This document shows, piece after piece, positions 4,537-9,784 of a stretch of 10,000 bases of DNA. The translations under genes were made by a program, and so were the position numbers. Source of the stretch: Flavobacterium sp. (GTDB lineage: Bacteria; Bacteroidota; Bacteroidia; Flavobacteriales; Flavobacteriaceae); NCBI RefSeq assembly GCF_020217025.1, contig NZ_JAIWOF010000221.1, positions 1 to 10,000 on the forward strand, in the 5' to 3' direction. The notes under the pieces were generated by a model. It worked only from the letters and a program-made list of their open reading frames with translations. It was not told where the DNA came from and ran no database searches. Each line of letters begins with the position of its first letter. Within the stretch, counting starts at the first letter, position 1.

Positions 4537-4609
4537 GACTTGGTAGCTCAGCTGGTAGAGCACATCACTTTTAATGATGGGGTCCTGGGTTCGAATCCCA
4601 GCCAGGTCA
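4537..4609 (+). tRNA. tRNA-Lys (anticodon TTT), copy 1
   Basis: A complete cloverleaf is visible. The acceptor GACTTGG pairs with CCAGGTC (4602-4608) with one G-T pair, and the discriminator is A4609. The D arm is in AGCTCAGCTGGTAGAGC. The anticodon stem CATCA/TGATG encloses the loop CTTTTAA, giving anticodon TTT (lysine). The T arm is CTGGG TTCGAAT CCCAG. CCA is not encoded. It is identical over 73 nt to the copy at 4639, and its leader and trailer are complementary. Confidence 0.97.
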
Positions 4610-4638
4610 CTACATAAAACTTATTTCTTGAACGCACC

Positions 4639-4711
4639 GACTTGGTAGCTCAGCTGGTAGAGCACATCACTTTTAATGATGGGGTCCTGGGTTCGAATCC
4701 CAGCCAGGTCA
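4639..4711 (+). tRNA. tRNA-Lys (anticodon TTT), copy 2
   Basis: This copy is identical to the first over all 73 nt, with the same anticodon loop CTTTTAA (TTT) and no encoded CCA. It begins 29 nt after the end of copy 1 with no promoter between them, so the two are one transcript. The flanks are not duplicated, so the duplicated unit is little more than the tRNA itself. Confidence 0.97.
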
Positions 4712-4721
4712 CAAAAAAATT

Positions 4722-4746
4722 AAAGACGTTGCATTGCAACGTCTTT
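4722..4746. terminator. Strong hairpin between tRNA-Lys copy 2 and tRNA-Leu
   Basis: A perfect 11-bp stem, AAAGACGTTGC (4722-4732) and GCAACGTCTTT (4736-4746), closes a 3-nt loop. It is flanked by an A-tract and a T-rich stretch (GTTGTTTTA). It has the form of an intrinsic terminator for the tRNA-Lys pair. However, it ends only 10 nt before tRNA-Leu and leaves almost no room for a separate promoter, so partial read-through or a processing role is possible. Confidence 0.65.
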
Positions 4747-4756
4747 GTTGTTTTAT

Positions 4757-4839
4757 GGCCAAGTGGAGAAACGGTAGACTCGCCATCTTGAGGGGGTGGT
4801 GCTCGTAAGGGCGTGAGGGTTCAAATCCCTCCTTGGTCA
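4757..4839 (+). tRNA. tRNA-Leu (anticodon GAG)
   Basis: This is a class II tRNA of 83 nt. The acceptor GGCCAAG pairs with CTTGGTC (4832-4838), the discriminator is A4839, and CCA is not encoded. The anticodon stem CCATC/GGTGG has the loop TTGAGGG, giving anticodon GAG, which reads CUC and CUU leucine codons. A long variable arm (GCTC GTAA GGGC) and a T arm GAGGG TTCAAAT CCCTC are visible. It follows a hairpin by only 10 nt. Confidence 0.93.
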
Positions 4840-4880
4840 CTTTTGTTACAATTTATTCTCAATCCTATCCCCTATATTAT

Positions 4881-4914
4881 ATTTGTTTAACCAAATTTAG
4901 ACTATCGTTAAACA
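4881..4914. promoter_or_regulatory. Upstream operator-like sites before the regulator gene
   Basis: ATTTGTTTAACCAAAT (4881-4896) is a 16-bp palindrome with one mismatched pair, and CGTTAAACATT (4906-4916) carries a further half-site. Both share the GTTAAAC / GTTTAAC core with the perfect palindromes at 4955-4969 and 5912-5926. They lie upstream of the regulator promoter and could be auxiliary binding sites for the same protein. Confidence 0.45.
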
Positions 4915-4932
4915 TTTTTACCAAAATACTTT

Positions 4933-4970
4933 TTTTGTTCACTTTTTTTATTACTTTTGTTAAACAAAAT
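4933..4970 (+). promoter_or_regulatory. Regulator promoter with overlapping palindromic operator
   Basis: TACTTTTG (4952-4959) fits the -7 consensus TAnnTTTG. The position 19 bp upstream is TTT rather than TTG, and the nearest TTG (4935-4937) is only 14 bp away, so the promoter looks weak. A perfect palindrome TTTTGTTAAACAAAA (4955-4969) overlaps the -7 box and the expected start site, which is a classic repressor position. Over 4933-4970 the element matches the crtI promoter region 5890-5927 at 33 of 38 positions without gaps. Confidence 0.65.
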
Positions 4971-4980
4971 GAAATGAGAG

Positions 4981-5880
4981 ATGAACAACGTTAAAAATGT
5001 TTTCAGTATCAAAGATTTAGAAAATCTTTCAGGAATAAAAGCACACACGATTCGTATCTGGGAAAAACGCTATAATGTATTAGAGCCTATGCGTTCAGAT
5101 ACTAACATTCGTTCGTATGATATTAAGAATTTACAAAAGCTTTTAAATATCGTATTACTTCACAATTACGGCTATAAAATTTCAAAAATAGGCACGCTTA
5201 ATCAGGAGCAAATTAACAAGTTAGCCAACGACATTATTTCCGAAAAAAGTGCAAAAAATCACGCCATTAGTACTTTCAAAATGGCAATGATGAATTTTGA
5301 TCAATCTTTGTTTTTCAATACATACAATCAATTATTAAGTGAGAAATCATTTCGTGAAGTATTTTACACTGTTTTTATACCACTGATGCAAGAAATTGGA
5401 TTTCTTTGGCAAACCGAGACCATTTCTCCAGCACACGAACATTTCATTAGTTATTTAATCAAACAAAAACTTTTAATAAATACAGAAAAAGTACAAATAC
5501 TAGAACCAACAAGAACAGACAAAGTTTTTGTGTTATTTCTTCCATTAAATGAAGTTCACGAACTTGGATTAATGTATTTGAATTACGAAATCCTATTAAA
5601 AGGCTACCAAACCATCTATCTTGGAGAAAGTATTCCAACTGACAGCTTGTTAGATTTAATTAATTCTTACGAAAAAATATCTTTTGTAAGTTATTTAACC
5701 GTTGAACCAAATCAGGAAGAAATTGATAATTATATGATTGATATTCAAGCGAAACTTATTGAAAACACCAATCATGAATTGTTATTATTAGGCAGAATGA
5801 CACAATCGATATCATCCAAAGTCATCAAAAATAACGTACATGTATTTAATAGTATAGAAGAACTTTCAAATACTTTATAA
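4981..5880 (+). CDS. MerR-family regulator with a CarH/LitR-type cobalamin-binding module, probable light-responsive repressor of carotenoid genes
   Basis: The 299-aa protein has three parts. Residues 7-75 form a MerR-type winged helix (FSIKDLENLSGIKAHTIRIWEKRYNVLEP, then NIRSYD). Residues about 95-165 are a helical cap like that of methionine synthase, with the W-x9-E-H signature (W143, E153, H154). Residues 180-299 resemble the Rossmann-type B12-binding domain and carry E191-x-H193-x-x-G196, where the histidine ligates cobalt in CarH. CarH/LitR proteins repress carotenoid genes in the dark with adenosylcobalamin and release DNA on illumination. The later GG motif of classical B12 domains is degenerate (LLLGRM), so cofactor binding is not assured. 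The gene sits just upstream of crtIBZ and shares an operator with crtI, so it probably represses both promoters. The ATG at 4981 is preceded by a short leader with GAGAG. The family call is firm; light sensing is an inference. Confidence 0.88.
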   Translation: MNNVKNVFSIKDLENLSGIKAHTIRIWEKRYNVLEPMRSDTNIRSYDIKNLQKLLNIVLLHNYGYKISKIGTLNQEQINKLANDIISEKSAKNHAISTFKMAMMNFDQSLFFNTYNQLLSEKSFREVFYTVFIPLMQEIGFLWQTETISPAHEHFISYLIKQKLLINTEKVQILEPTRTDKVFVLFLPLNEVHELGLMYLNYEILLKGYQTIYLGESIPTDSLLDLINSYEKISFVSYLTVEPNQEEIDNYMIDIQAKLIENTNHELLLLGRMTQSISSKVIKNNVHVFNSIEELSNTL

Positions 5881-5885
5881 AAAGA

Positions 5886-5927
5886 TTTGTTTTGTTTAAC
5901 TTTTTTACTATTTTTGTTAAACAAAAT
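5886..5927 (+). promoter_or_regulatory. crtI promoter with overlapping palindromic operator
   Basis: TTTG (5886-5889) is followed after 19 bp by TATTTTTG (5909-5916), a full match to the Bacteroidetes promoter consensus. The perfect palindrome TTTTGTTAAACAAAA (5912-5926) overlaps the -7 box, and a half-site TTTTGTTTAAC (5890-5900) fills the spacer. The two sites are 22 bp apart, about two helical turns, the same spacing as in the regulator promoter. Expected start of transcription is near 5922. Confidence 0.75.
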
Positions 5928-5935
5928 AAAAACAA

Positions 5936-7396
5936 GTGAGTAAAAACATCGCCATAATCGGTTCAGGATTTTCTTCGTTAGCTGCAGCTTGCTATTTAGC
6001 AAAACAGGGTAACGATGTAACTGTTTACGAAAAAAATAGTACCATAGGAGGAAGAGCGCGTCAACTTAAAAAAGAAGGCTTTACATTCGATATTGGGCCA
6101 ACATGGTATTGGATGCCCGATGTATTTGAGCGTTTCTTTGCTGACTTTGGCAAAAAACCTTCAGATTATTATGAGTTAATTAAACTCTCACCAGCTTATC
6201 AAGTCTATTTTGGACATTTGGATTTTGTTACTATTGCCGATAACTTACCAGAAATTGTAAAAACTTTCGAATCTATAGAGAAAGGAAGCGGAAAGCAATT
6301 AGAGCAATTCATGGCGGAAGCTAAAAGCAATTATAATATCGCCATTAAAGATTTGGTATATCGTCCAGGAGAATCGCCTTTGGAGTTAATTACTTTAGAA
6401 ACAGCCAAAAAAGTGAATCAATTTTTCAGTAATATTAAAAAAGATGTTCGAAAACGATTCAAAAACATGAAATTGGTTCAAATTTTAGAGTTTCCCGTTT
6501 TATTTTTGGGAGCAAAACCAAGCGACACGCCTTCTTTTTACAACTTTATGAACTTTGCCGACTTTGGTTTGGGAACATGGCATCCAAAAAACGGAATGTA
6601 TTCGGTAATTTTAGCTATGGAAACATTGGCGAAAGAATTAGGAGTCAAAATAAAAACTAATGCTAATGTTCAAAAAATTGATGTTACCAACGGAAAAGCG
6701 ACTGGCTTATTAGTAAATAACAAAATCATTACAGCTGATATGGTTCTAAGTGGCGCCGATTATCATCATTCGGAAACTTTATTGGATGAGAAATATCGTC
6801 AGTATTCTGAGAAATATTGGGAAAACAAAACATTTGCTCCTTCTTCGCTCCTATTTTATGTTGGGTTTGATAAGAAAATTGAAAACGTAGAACATCATTC
6901 TTTATTCTTTGATGTAGATTTCAATATTCACGCCGAAGCCATTTACGACAATCCAAAATGGCCTGAAGAACCTTTGTTTTACGCAAGTTTTCCATCAAAA
7001 ACTGATAAAAACTCAGCTCCAGAAGGAAAAGAAGCTGGAATCTTTTTAATTCCTTTGGCACCAGGATTAGAAGATACAAACGAGTTAAGAGAATTATACT
7101 TTGAAAAAATAATCACCCGACTAGAACGACTAACTAATCAAAGTGTGAAAAATAATATTATCTTTAAAGAATCGTTTTGTGTAAATGATTTTGTTAAAGA
7201 ATATAATTCGTACAAAGGGAATGCATACGGTATGGCCAATACCTTATTGCAAACCGCTTTTTTAAGACCTAAATTGAAAAGTAAAAAAGTACAAAATTTG
7301 TATTTTACTGGACAGTTAACCGTACCAGGACCGGGAGTTCCACCGTCCTTAATTTCAGGAAAATTAGTTGCCGATTTAATAAAAAAGTATCAATAG
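5936..7396 (+). CDS. crtI: Phytoene desaturase
   Basis: The 486-aa enzyme is a membrane-associated FAD-dependent desaturase that converts phytoene to lycopene (or an intermediate) in carotenoid synthesis. The N-terminus has the dinucleotide fold AIIGSGFSSLAAACYLA (6-22), a glutamate at the end of strand 2 (YEKN), and IGGRARQ (37-43). The next segment, FTFDIGPTWYWMPD (49-62), is typical of CrtI. The C-terminal bacterial carotenoid desaturase motif is NLYFTGQLTVPGPGVPPS (about 454-471). Length is usual for the family. The start must be GTG at 5936: an in-frame stop lies at 5927-5929 and the FAD fold begins within five residues. The leader would be only about 14 nt with no Shine-Dalgarno sequence. 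The gene is first in the crtI-crtB-crtZ operon, and its promoter carries the palindromic operator. A gap of 1 nt separates it from crtB. Confidence 0.95.
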   Translation: MSKNIAIIGSGFSSLAAACYLAKQGNDVTVYEKNSTIGGRARQLKKEGFTFDIGPTWYWMPDVFERFFADFGKKPSDYYELIKLSPAYQVYFGHLDFVTIADNLPEIVKTFESIEKGSGKQLEQFMAEAKSNYNIAIKDLVYRPGESPLELITLETAKKVNQFFSNIKKDVRKRFKNMKLVQILEFPVLFLGAKPSDTPSFYNFMNFADFGLGTWHPKNGMYSVILAMETLAKELGVKIKTNANVQKIDVTNGKATGLLVNNKIITADMVLSGADYHHSETLLDEKYRQYSEKYWENKTFAPSSLLFYVGFDKKIENVEHHSLFFDVDFNIHAEAIYDNPKWPEEPLFYASFPSKTDKNSAPEGKEAGIFLIPLAPGLEDTNELRELYFEKIITRLERLTNQSVKNNIIFKESFCVNDFVKEYNSYKGNAYGMANTLLQTAFLRPKLKSKKVQNLYFTGQLTVPGPGVPPSLISGKLVADLIKKYQ

Positions 7397-7397
7397 T

Positions 7398-8237
7398 ATG
7401 AAGTCCATTTTTGATAACGTTTCATTTGATTGTAGCGTAAAAGTTACGAAAGCGTACAGCACATCATTTTCATCTGCTGTAAAAATGTTGGCTCCTAGTA
7501 TCCGACAAGACATCTATAACATTTATGGTTTTGTTCGCTTTGCGGATGAAATTGTAGATACTTTTCACGATTACGATAAAGAAGCCTTGTTTTCTCAGTT
7601 TGAAAATGAATTAAGTTTAGCGCTATCACAAAGAATTAGTTTAAATCCAATTTTAAATTCATTTCAACATACTGTGAATAAATATAATATTCCACAGGAA
7701 ATGATTGATGCCTTTATGAAAAGCATGAAACTTGATTTAAGCAAAAGTGAATACAAAACAACAGAAGAATATCAAGAATATATTTATGGTTCAGCTGATG
7801 TTGTGGGATTAATGTGCTTGAAAGTTTTCGTAAACGGAAATGATGAAAAGTACAATGAATTAAAAGATTCAGCTATGCGATTAGGATCAGCTTTTCAAAA
7901 AGTGAATTTCTTACGCGACTTAAAAGCAGATTTTGAAGAATTAAGTAGAACTTATTTCCCTAATACCGATTTGAATCATTTAGATGAAAAATCAAAACAA
8001 GAAATCATTGCTGATATTGAAAGTGATTTTGAAGCTGCTTATGAAGGAATTAAAAACTTACCTTTAGAAGCTAAATTTGGCGTTTATACGGCATACAGAT
8101 ATTATAAAAAATTATTGAAAAAGCTTCAAAAAACACCTTCTTTAGAAATCAAAAATACGCGTATACGAGTTTCTGATTATCAAAAAGTAGAATTATTGGC
8201 CAGATGTTACGTCAAATACAGATTAAATATAATTTAA
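7398..8237 (+). CDS. crtB: Phytoene synthase
   Basis: The 279-aa enzyme joins two geranylgeranyl diphosphates to give phytoene, the first committed carotenoid step. It belongs to the squalene/phytoene synthase family. Both aspartate-rich motifs for magnesium diphosphate are present: FADEIVD (D50, D54) and FLRDLKADF (D174, D178), the second within the family signature that continues to SRTYFP. The N-terminal SFSSAVKML segment also fits. The ATG at 7398 comes 1 nt after the crtI stop, so translation is probably coupled. Length is typical of compact Bacteroidetes members. It is placed between the desaturase and the hydroxylase, so the operon supplies consecutive steps of one pathway. I see no defect in the coding sequence. 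Confidence 0.95.
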   Translation: MKSIFDNVSFDCSVKVTKAYSTSFSSAVKMLAPSIRQDIYNIYGFVRFADEIVDTFHDYDKEALFSQFENELSLALSQRISLNPILNSFQHTVNKYNIPQEMIDAFMKSMKLDLSKSEYKTTEEYQEYIYGSADVVGLMCLKVFVNGNDEKYNELKDSAMRLGSAFQKVNFLRDLKADFEELSRTYFPNTDLNHLDEKSKQEIIADIESDFEAAYEGIKNLPLEAKFGVYTAYRYYKKLLKKLQKTPSLEIKNTRIRVSDYQKVELLARCYVKYRLNII

Positions 8238-8249
8238 AACTAATATAGT

Positions 8250-8693
8250 ATGTGGTTACACGTTTTAGTATTTTTCACAACCTTTTTCTTCATGGAATTC
8301 ATGGCTTGGTTTAGTCATAAATATATTATGCACGGATTCTTATGGAGTTTACATGCCGATCATCACAAGAAAGATCATGATTCATGGTTTGAACGTAATG
8401 ATGCTTTTTTCATTTTTTATGCTGTTGTGAGTATTGGCTGTTTTTTATTGTGGCAACACAATATCTTAGAAATAGGATTAGCAATTGGATTAGGAATTTT
8501 CGCTTACGGATTGGCCTATTTCTTAGTACATGATATTTTTATTCACCAACGATTTAAATTGTTTAGAAATGCAAACAATCGTTATGCTAAAGCTGTTAGA
8601 CGCGCTCACAAAATGCATCACAAACACATAGGAAAAGAACACGGAGAATGTTTTGGAATGTTAATCGTTCCTTTGAAATACTTCAAAAACTAA
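8250..8693 (+). CDS. crtZ: Beta-carotene hydroxylase (fatty acid hydroxylase superfamily)
   Basis: The 147-aa integral membrane protein is a non-haem di-iron hydroxylase that adds 3-hydroxyl groups to beta-carotene, giving cryptoxanthin and then zeaxanthin. The histidine clusters that bind iron are complete: HKYIMH (H23, H28), HADHH (H35, H38, H39), VHDIFIH (H94, H99) and HKMHHKH (H120, H123, H124). Hydrophobic segments at 4-20, 52-68 and 74-95 fit a membrane enzyme. The ATG at 8250 comes 12 nt after crtB, within the same operon. The coding region runs directly into a strong terminator, so the operon ends here. No lycopene cyclase, needed to make the substrate, is adjacent. Length is close to other bacterial CrtZ proteins. 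Confidence 0.93.
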   Translation: MWLHVLVFFTTFFFMEFMAWFSHKYIMHGFLWSLHADHHKKDHDSWFERNDAFFIFYAVVSIGCFLLWQHNILEIGLAIGLGIFAYGLAYFLVHDIFIHQRFKLFRNANNRYAKAVRRAHKMHHKHIGKEHGECFGMLIVPLKYFKN

Positions 8694-8720
8694 AAAATCC
8701 CGCAGTTGCGGGATTTTTTT
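8692..8720. terminator. Shared bidirectional terminator between the crt operon and the DUF4252 genes
   Basis: An A-tract leads into ATCCCGC (8697-8703), a 4-nt loop and GCGGGAT (8708-8714), followed by a T-tract. The A/T tracts extend the stem. It overlaps the crtZ stop codon on one side and touches the stop of the convergent lipoprotein gene (8720-8722) on the other, so one hairpin serves both operons. Confidence 0.92.
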
Positions 8721-9253
8721 TATTTCATAAGTTGTTGTAAGGATTTCAGTTGCTCCATATCGACTTGTGATTTTTGGAGTAAACTCAGCATATTCATTAT
8801 ATGCGTTGGATTCATATCGTTTCCTAAAACACGAACTACTGCAAAACCATTTTCTTTCTTTCCAGCTAAAACTACGAACTCTTCAATGTGTTCATCATCA
8901 TTCCCAACGAAATAAATAGCTGCTCCATCGTTTCCAGAACCTACTTTCATTAATTGCTGATAGCTTTCGTCTTTCAAAATAGCTTTTACTTCTTTGATTT
9001 CTTTATCATATCCTGATATATCAGTAGAATCAGCTCTGAAAGCTAAAATATTCATTTTATCAAACGATTCTAAAGCCGCTTTTTCAGTTTCAGACAAAGT
9101 AACTTTATCTGTTTTAATGATATTAGAAGCTAAGTCTAATGCAATGAACTTAGATGATTCCGTATTTTTTACAAAATACTTTTGAAGCGTTGGTTTTTCT
9201 TCACAACTCCAAAGTAAAATCACACTTGAAACAAGTAATAGAAACTTTTTCAT
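8720..9253 (-). CDS. DUF4252 lipoprotein
   Basis: The 177-aa protein begins with a lipoprotein signal (MKKFLLLVSSVILLWSC; lipidated Cys17) and should be anchored in the cell envelope. The rest resembles the DUF4252 family, small Bacteroidetes envelope proteins of unknown function: SKFIALDLASNIIK, an Asp/Glu-rich helix, then AFRAD, a KAILKDESYQQLMKVG segment and a beta strand pair ending in FAVVRVLGNDMNP. No catalytic motif is seen. It lies 3 nt downstream of another protein of the same family on the same strand, and the two share the core pattern (helix, then LKVF or LAF, then ELMRV or QLMKV, then a strand). They may act as a pair. It ends at the terminator shared with crtZ. Confidence 0.8.
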   Translation of the reverse strand: MKKFLLLVSSVILLWSCEEKPTLQKYFVKNTESSKFIALDLASNIIKTDKVTLSETEKAALESFDKMNILAFRADSTDISGYDKEIKEVKAILKDESYQQLMKVGSGNDGAAIYFVGNDDEHIEEFVVLAGKKENGFAVVRVLGNDMNPTHIMNMLSLLQKSQVDMEQLKSLQQLMK

Positions 9254-9256
9254 GGT

Positions 9257-9784
9257 TTATTTTTTTGAAGCTTTTTTCAAATCATCACCACCAGGTAAAT
9301 TCATTTTTTCGGTTAACATAGAAATTTCATCTAAACTAAAGTTTCCAGTTAATGATAAAACAATTGTACTAGCATCTTTCATATTAGCTCCTTCAATAAA
9401 CATTAAAAGTTCTTTTACAATGTTTTCGTTAGCACCTGATTTTACATAAATTTTCACATTTTTACCATCGCCATTTACACGCATCAATTCTTCTAAAGGA
9501 TTCGATTTTAAGTAACTATTTACAGTCGCTTTCATATCGGCACCTAATTTTGCATTACTCGTTGTAAACACTTTTAAGTTGTCTAATTTTTTAAGCAAGT
9601 TCATGTATTGTTGCATTTCTTTATCTTTTGCATCCACTTTAACTTTACTCATCATTTCAAACATCTTCTTATTCACAATAACAGATGCTACACCTTCTTT
9701 ATCTTCAAATTTATCAAAAGCGCCTTGTGCAAAAGAAACTGTTGATACCATTAAAAATGCTATAACTACTACTAAATTTTTCAT
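9257..9784 (-). CDS. DUF4252 secreted protein
   Basis: The 175-aa protein has a Sec signal peptide (MKNLVVVIAFLMVSTVSFA, cleavage likely before Q20), so it is exported rather than lipid-anchored. The mature part fits DUF4252: FDKFEDKEGVASVIVNKKMFEMM, then LDNLKVFTTSN, a conserved VNSYLKSNPLEELMRVNGDGKNVKIYVK stretch (split here by the mention only) and a final IVLSLTGNFSLDEISML. The function is unknown. It is followed after 3 nt by a lipoprotein of the same family and preceded after 8 nt by the end of a membrane-anchored protein, so the three form one minus-strand operon. Lysine-rich, with no cysteines in the mature part. Confidence 0.8.
   Translation of the reverse strand: MKNLVVVIAFLMVSTVSFAQGAFDKFEDKEGVASVIVNKKMFEMMSKVKVDAKDKEMQQYMNLLKKLDNLKVFTTSNAKLGADMKATVNSYLKSNPLEELMRVNGDGKNVKIYVKSGANENIVKELLMFIEGANMKDASTIVLSLTGNFSLDEISMLTEKMNLPGGDDLKKASKK

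Follow-up and report, generated by a model that had tools for sequence, protein, structure and literature searches.

The merR-crt locus

The window, meaning the whole stretch of 10,000 nucleotides analysed here, belongs to a Flavobacterium assembly of 2.5 Mb in 238 contigs that is 92.75% complete. Three tRNA genes are followed in it by merR, crtI, crtB, and a crtZ-like gene. The nearest named relatives of the merR product, 99% identical to it, come from F. sasangense and F. proteolyticum. The four protein-coding genes are as follows.

4981..5880, + strand: merR, a CarH/LitR-like MerR regulator of 299 aa with MerR_1 and B12-binding_2 domains and the motifs W143-x9-E153-H154, E191-x-H193-xx-G and R25xWExRY
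5936..7396, + strand: crtI, encoding phytoene desaturase (743 bits to NCBIfam CrtID, whose cut-off is 640)
7398..8237, + strand: crtB, phytoene synthase (SQS_PSY)
8250..8693, + strand: crtZ-like beta-carotene hydroxylase, named from His motifs by eye and without a Pfam or NCBIfam match

The tRNA genes lie within 4537-4840. Two of them are tRNA-Lys(TTT) genes, identical by eye and ~100 bp apart, and a tRNA-Leu(GAG) gene is located directly upstream of merR. An inverted repeat seen by eye between the tRNA genes (AAAGACGTTGCATTGCAACGTCTTT, 4722-4746) is probably a terminator. At the other end, two tandem DUF4252 genes (8720-9784, - strand) adjoin the crt operon, and another short ORF runs off the contig end.

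The promoters of merR and crtI resemble each other closely. Positions 4933-4970 and 5890-5927 are identical at 33 of 38 bases without gaps, as a preliminary description of the window had claimed, and in dinucleotide shuffles (500 pairs) the best 38-bp match had a mean of 23 and a maximum of 29. The perfect 15-bp palindrome TTTTGTTAAACAAAA reported there is present exactly at 4955-4969 and 5912-5926, and these are its only two exact copies in the assembly. With one mismatch allowed, its genome-wide frequency equals that of a reversed control (9 versus 9). The sequence TTTTGTT, 22 bp upstream in both promoters, and the near-palindrome at 4881-4896 were likewise found as described. The same holds for the promoters themselves: the usual spacing between the -33 and -7 elements is 17-23 bp, merR lacks a TTG at this distance from its -7 box, and crtI has TTTG-N19-TATTTTTG. 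The consensus of the -7 box is TAnnTTTG, located at -12 to -5 according to a portion of PMC9723704.

4952..4959, + strand: merR -7 box TACTTTTG
5886..5916, + strand: crtI promoter, made up of TTTG (5886-5889), 19 bp, and TATTTTTG (5909-5916)

An inverted-repeat operator over both promoters

What is the conserved element within this similarity? Comparison of sequences across Flavobacteriaceae identifies it as a longer inverted repeat, TTGTTTA-N18(19)-TAAACAA, and not as the 15-bp palindrome. The palindrome is the right arm of the inverted repeat fused to the -7 box, and in the clade of this genome it arises from TTTG fused to TTAAACAAAA. The following elements, none assigned a strand, are present in the window.

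4883..4915: TTGTTTA-N19-TAAACAT, the most distal of the operators that lie upstream of merR; it takes in most of the near-palindrome at 4881-4896, which supplies its left arm
4935..4967: operator A, TTGTTCA-N19-TAAACAA, covering the merR -7 box
4955..4969: 15-bp palindrome, in which the -7 TTTG is fused to operator A's right arm and operator B's left arm
4957..4988: operator B, TTGTTAA-N18-TGAACAA, with its left arm on the -7 box and its right arm within the merR start codon
5892..5924: crtI operator TTGTTTA-N19-TAAACAA, covering the -7 box and the predicted transcription start

With up to two mismatches allowed, four operator copies occur in the two promoter regions and none elsewhere in the 10 kb. 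None of 1000 shuffles of both promoter regions reached four copies (mean 0.13, maximum 3). The arms of the distal operator are visible by eye at a gap of 18-19 in close relatives (e.g. L058, L059, and L065-L067), and operator B is the copy that is conserved throughout the family. Placed by the -7 boxes, the crtI operator extends from approximately -29 to +4 and merR operator B from approximately -7 to +25. At crtI, the right arm comes after the -7 box (TAnnTTTGYTAAACAAA); at merR, the left arm overlaps the box. Both placements lie over the transcription start and suit a repressor of the roadblock kind better than an activator of the classical MerR kind.

Conservation and spacing in Flavobacterium

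The element was examined upstream of merR (113 distinct regions) and in merR-crtI regions (115 distinct), nearly all from Flavobacterium. These derive from 130 loci, from which 129 and 127 regions, respectively, were kept before those with identical last 80 bases were merged. The inverted repeat, with at most two mismatches and a gap of 18-19, occurred in 111 of the 113 merR regions and 79 of the 115 merR-crtI regions, compared to 25 and 18 at gaps of 22-23. With full seven-base arms and at most one mismatch, the counts were 100/113 and 76/115, and the control gaps of 22-23 gave 4 and 0. Exact GTTTA/TAAAC cores were found at gaps of 18 and 19 in 21 and 13 merR regions and in 43 and 25 merR-crtI regions, and each other gap up to 45 in no more than two. 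When one mismatch was tolerated in each half of TGTTTA/TAAACA, merR regions displayed gap 18 in 103/113 and gap 19 in 27 (other gaps up to 45, at most 29), and merR-crtI regions displayed gap 18 in 55/115 and gap 19 in 25/115 (other gaps, at most 26).

The palindrome, which the preliminary description had taken for the operator, was exact in just 12 of the 113 merR regions and 16 of the 115 merR-crtI regions. Its absence upstream of orthologous crt operons was offered there as a refutation, and by this test the proposal would mostly have failed, because the wrong element had been named. The accompanying half-site 22 bp away does exist in the window. It is, however, the left arm of the inverted repeat and not a direct half-site, and at crtI a distance of 21 bp (gap 18) is the commoner one in relatives (55 versus 25 of 115).

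No site with up to two mismatches was found in 36 of the 115 merR-crtI regions; in 11 of these, crtI begins no more than 30 bp after merR. The most conserved site among those examined is the merR site, even where crtI does not have a promoter site of its own.

The right arm of this site lies at the gene start, on ATGAACAA, in 96 of the 113 regions (up to two mismatches). Of 115 distinct merR genes, 110 encode Asn at the second codon, and 108 of these 110 use AAC. Elsewhere in merR, AAC accounts for 771 of 2372 Asn codons (32.5%), and at codon 3 for 29 of 94. Such a codon bias indicates that selection acts on the DNA word at the merR start, beyond the protein alone. In some relatives (L310, L312, and several Flavobacterium), merR apparently has a TTG start (TTGAACAA) or begins a codon further upstream (ATGATAAACAA). 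The operator arm is retained in relatives whose start codon context differs.

Co-occurrence with the regulator beyond the genus

A match to the regulator is encoded in 120 of 149 Flavobacteriaceae genomes representing 148 genera, although about a dozen of these matches show only 31-36% identity, which is weak, and could be paralogs. The operator was found with a gap of 18 in 26 of the 28 best-scoring merR orthologs of other genera, and it lies at the start codon in the rows inspected. In a phylum-wide draw of 198 genomes, all 16 Flavobacteriaceae loci (L298-L313, eight of them Flavobacterium) carry the operator upstream of merR with at most three mismatches, at the start codon in 15 and at -76 in one. 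Loci of other families in this draw (n = 12, 34-43% identity) had no operator at the start codon, and in two of them a match was located further upstream, at 2-3 mismatches.

The number of sites follows the regulator. The exact operator pattern occurred 226 times in 52 Flavobacterium genomes that encode the regulator, compared to 47 occurrences of the control pattern; in nine genomes that do not encode it, the two counts were 7 and 8. Site numbers differed between the two groups with a Mann-Whitney p of 5e-6 across the 61 genomes, a value not corrected for shared descent. Arms 20-21 bp apart numbered 33 across the same 61 genomes by a hand sum, against 32 for the control.

Putative target genes

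The preliminary description had limited the operator to merR and crtIBZ, which is too narrow: it also stands in front of the genes for proteorhodopsin, blh, and photolyase, among others. Gene families neighbouring the sites recur in a subset of genomes, and their Pfam names come from one member each. Proteorhodopsin (Bac_rhodopsin) and beta-carotene dioxygenase (blh) form a divergent pair among them. Further families are fasciclin, DUF2805, flavin reductase, SDR, TspO, GTP cyclohydrolase I (folE), and TetR_C_23. The largest group adjoining operators consists of fasciclin-type proteins, with 11 in one cluster of which one was named by Pfam (e.g. L140, L176, L181, L187, and L201).

In the genome of the window, another contig (C87) carries a site at 4756-4787 that is followed by an SRPBCC-like gene (4814-5281), an SDR gene, a photolyase gene (6056-7342), and a second photolyase/cryptochrome gene (7379-8839). 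The SRPBCC-like label was given by eye, without a Pfam or NCBIfam match. The photolyase matches fall under the NCBIfam equivalog cut-offs, and PF03441 is above its own cut-off. The two photolyases sit 1.3 and 2.6 kb into their operon. Only five of 30 PF03441 loci examined with ~1.5-kb flanks had a site with at most one mismatch. A wider distance was covered in 14 genomes, namely this genome and those 13 of the other 60 Flavobacterium genomes that have complete site lists. Of their 71 exact sites, 11 are located at merR or crtI and another 13 have a PF03441 gene within 4 kb. The remaining 47 include chance sites and the other gene families; the control suggests ~1 chance site per genome. Thus, 13 of the 60 sites away from merR and crtI are near a PF03441 gene, and 15 of the 33 PF03441 genes in these genomes have a site within 4 kb.

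A third photolyase-like family is present in this genome (C2:1424-1888) and several relatives. In-frame stops were counted in it in many genomes, which may reflect the counting of stops at frame ends.

Operators at proteorhodopsin genes

The genome of the window has no rhodopsin match. Bac_rhodopsin was found in 32 of 121 Flavobacterium genomes at 34 places, 30 of which were examined. A site with at most two mismatches is located within 270 bp upstream of the rhodopsin domain match in 27 of these 30 loci, and 22 of the 27 have at least two sites, mostly some 44 bp apart. Exact cores in the Flavobacterium loci had a gap of 18 in 18 cases and 19 in three, and every other gap between 5 and 39 occurred at most once. 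Likewise, among 28 proteorhodopsin loci of other genera, the exact core had gap 18 in 16 and any other gap at most once. At two mismatches, gap 8 was nearly as frequent as gap 18 in these 28 loci (15 versus 17).

At the family level, the presence of a proteorhodopsin site displayed no clear association with that of the regulator. A site was found in 16 of 22 genomes with the regulator, where one locus (L237) has no upstream sequence and was scored as a miss, and in three of six without it, four of these six genomes being less than 85% complete. One Flavobacterium genome in which the regulator was not detected (G042, locus L354) has a rhodopsin gene with operators at 1-2 mismatches, and these might be decaying after loss of the regulator.

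The regulator compared with CarH and other known systems

The merR product matches MerR_1 (1.1e-12) and B12-binding_2 (7.3e-09) in Pfam. In sequence as well as in predicted fold (pLDDT 88.3, pTM 0.68), its closest solved structures are those of CarH of Thermus. It scores 62.7 bits against the NCBIfam equivalog NF052513, below the cut-off of 400. In the recognition helix RxWExRY, the residues R25, W27, E28, R30, and Y31 are invariant in 37 aligned sequences. The helix agrees with the RxWERRY of CarH and class I LitR, with K29 replacing the first R of RRY in the protein of the window.

AdoCbl binding in CarH is defined by the motifs Wx9EH and ExHxxG, according to a portion of PMC9304148. ExHxxG, in CarH D/ExHxxG of the B12-binding domain, is present in all 119 distinct Flavobacterium sequences. 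Wx9EH is present in the same 119, and both motifs are intact in 29/29 sequences of a family draw (one of them Flavobacterium). Wx9EH is also present in 15 of 16 further Flavobacteriaceae sequences; Gln replaces its His in the remaining one. The His that follows the Trp as the upper cobalt ligand of the light state in many, not all, CarH proteins (His132 in Thermus) is absent here. At the position after Trp143, 117 of the 119 sequences have Gln (one has His, one Thr), as do 29/29 and 16/16 of the further sets. In the part of PMC10442372 that deals with it, Thermus CarH H132A is mostly tetrameric after light, and an earlier report differed. With Gln replacing His132, the release step must therefore differ if that account holds. 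CtMerR, which has Arg in place of His132, still converts from tetramer to monomer in light (PMC11796333, in part).

CarH operators are tandem 11-bp direct repeats with the half-site TnnACA, as described in a section of PMC9304148. Such repeats (nnnnTnnACAn) were not found at the sites, whose arms are inverted. A TnnACA at a distance of 11 bp from the right arm occurs in 6 of 54 crtI sites; among 106 merR and 73 other sites it is found in less than 8%. At 22 bp it is present in less than 8% of each of the three sets, and at 21 bp in 20 of the 106 merR sites. The possibility that the 22-bp spacing represents two CarH-type 11-bp repeats was ruled out by gap histograms and logos. The half-site TAAACA itself fits TnnACA and the RxWExRY helix is invariant; the protein therefore fits the half-site, as far as the half-site is described in that section.

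Overall, the system resembles CarH of Thermus thermophilus, Bacillus megaterium, and myxobacteria in domain order, fold, RxWExRY, Wx9EH, ExHxxG, adjoining crt genes, the half-site, and an operator lying over the promoter. It differs in having half-sites that are inverted 18-19 bp apart rather than in tandem, Gln for His132, an operator arm in its own start codon, and a wider predicted regulon. Pseudomonas, with LitR/PplR of class II, offers a likeness in the regulon: a photolyase, a cryptochrome-like protein, an SDR, and GTP cyclohydrolase I are light-induced and linked to MerR-type regulators there (PMC9758184, in part). However, class II LitR is without a full B12 domain and acts with a LOV protein, whereas the B12 domain is complete here. 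CtMerR of Chloracidobacterium (8jbs/8jbt) also combines MerR and cobalamin domains and responds to light without an equivalent of His132, with the difference that Arg occupies the position of Gln. The adenosyltransferase making AdoCbl is present in 58 of 61 genomes including that of the window, and for this reason its presence does not discriminate.

A proposed light switch and its alternatives

It is quite likely that the inverted repeat is the operator of a CarH-like AdoCbl photoreceptor-repressor, encoded between its own copies, which would run a family-wide light regulon. The operator in this model pairs inverted half-sites (TGTTTA ... TAAACA) at a distance of 18 or 19 bp and lies over a promoter. 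Without light, AdoCbl-bound protein would occupy it and block RNA polymerase at merR, giving autoregulation, and at crtIBZ. In light, the Co-C bond would be broken, the protein would be released, and the carotenoid genes would be expressed. The same switch may act on proteorhodopsin and the retinal-making blh, on photolyase/cryptochrome operons, and on folE, flavin reductase, and others. The repression scheme of the preliminary description thus survives in part: one operator is common to merR and crtIBZ and lies over both promoters, and the MerR protein is the likely repressor of both, although the palindrome is not that operator.

Is light on AdoCbl the signal? The MerR protein might bind the operator and respond to something else, either B12 supply or a partner as for CarA (CarS) and class II LitR (LOV protein). 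The Gln found where CarH has its light-state His is in keeping with this, and CarA and PmlR2 provide precedents (portions of PMC9304148 and PMC9758184). However, Wx9EH, which contacts the adenosyl group and is incomplete in CarA by these partial accounts, is intact in every Flavobacterium sequence. CtMerR responds to light without that His in the account cited above, and several of the putative targets are light genes. A signal other than light is rather unlikely on this balance.

It is also improbable that a different regulator of light or stress genes acts through the inverted repeat, with merR as just one of its targets. A TetR-like gene (TetR_C_23) adjoins sites as well, and binding by the MerR protein is itself deduced. 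The strong conservation of the merR site, even next to a crtI that has none, speaks against such a regulator, as does the dependence of site number on the MerR regulator and the agreement of the half-site with the TnnACA of CarH given in PMC9304148.

There is very little probability that the operator is the palindrome together with a direct half-site 22 bp upstream. The exact palindrome in both promoters of the window, and nowhere else in the assembly, speaks for this reading. Besides its rarity in relatives, many crtI promoters read TTTGCTAAACAAA, in which the left half of the palindrome is broken and the right half is kept. Furthermore, 51 sites that were picked by their outer arms and have no -7 box at the arm display no palindrome around either arm. 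Finally, although TAnnTTTG and T-rich runs occur in both promoters and account for part of the 38-bp match, the idea that the likeness comes merely from two strong Bacteroidota promoters with T-rich spacers has practically no chance of being correct, because it is ruled out by the codon-2 bias of an arm lying in coding sequence, by site numbers that fall to the control level in genomes without the regulator, and by operator sites whose arms have no -7 box, the arms also having a spacing of their own that differs from the -33/-7 spacing.

Implications for Flavobacteriaceae

Taking the CarH-like repressor as the preferred model, one B12-type light sensor probably turns on light-harvesting, DNA-repair, and pigment genes in light. 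What appears to be new is a regulator of CarH type whose operator is inverted and whose predicted light regulon takes in phototrophy. A literature search in which subscription papers were mostly outside the scope found no report of the operator, the regulator, or the proteorhodopsin link in the texts it covered, and no transcription factor named there for Flavobacteriaceae proteorhodopsin. Photolyase genes are enriched in proteorhodopsin-bearing Flavobacteriia according to part of a genome comparison (PMC5932025), and light-induced carotenoids are described for Chryseobacterium lacus in a portion of PMC7064467. Both observations fit the proposed regulon and are no test of it.

The analysis names a candidate transcription factor for Flavobacteriaceae proteorhodopsin together with its exact putative binding positions. 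A relative of CarH that seemingly recognizes the same half-site in a different geometry would need a different assembly on DNA, and it carries a natural Gln variant at a residue reported to be critical for light release. Among the bacteria of sunlit waters that carry proteorhodopsin, Flavobacteriaceae are a major group, and B12 is often scarce in the sea. The chances are about even for the full proposal, in which a CarH-type AdoCbl photoreceptor with an inverted-repeat operator and a light chemistry lacking the bis-His step would be the family-wide light switch of Flavobacteriaceae, with direct control over phototrophy by proteorhodopsin, retinal synthesis, photolyases, and carotenoids, and in which B12 supply would gate phototrophy. 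If true, it would link B12 to the use of light in this family.
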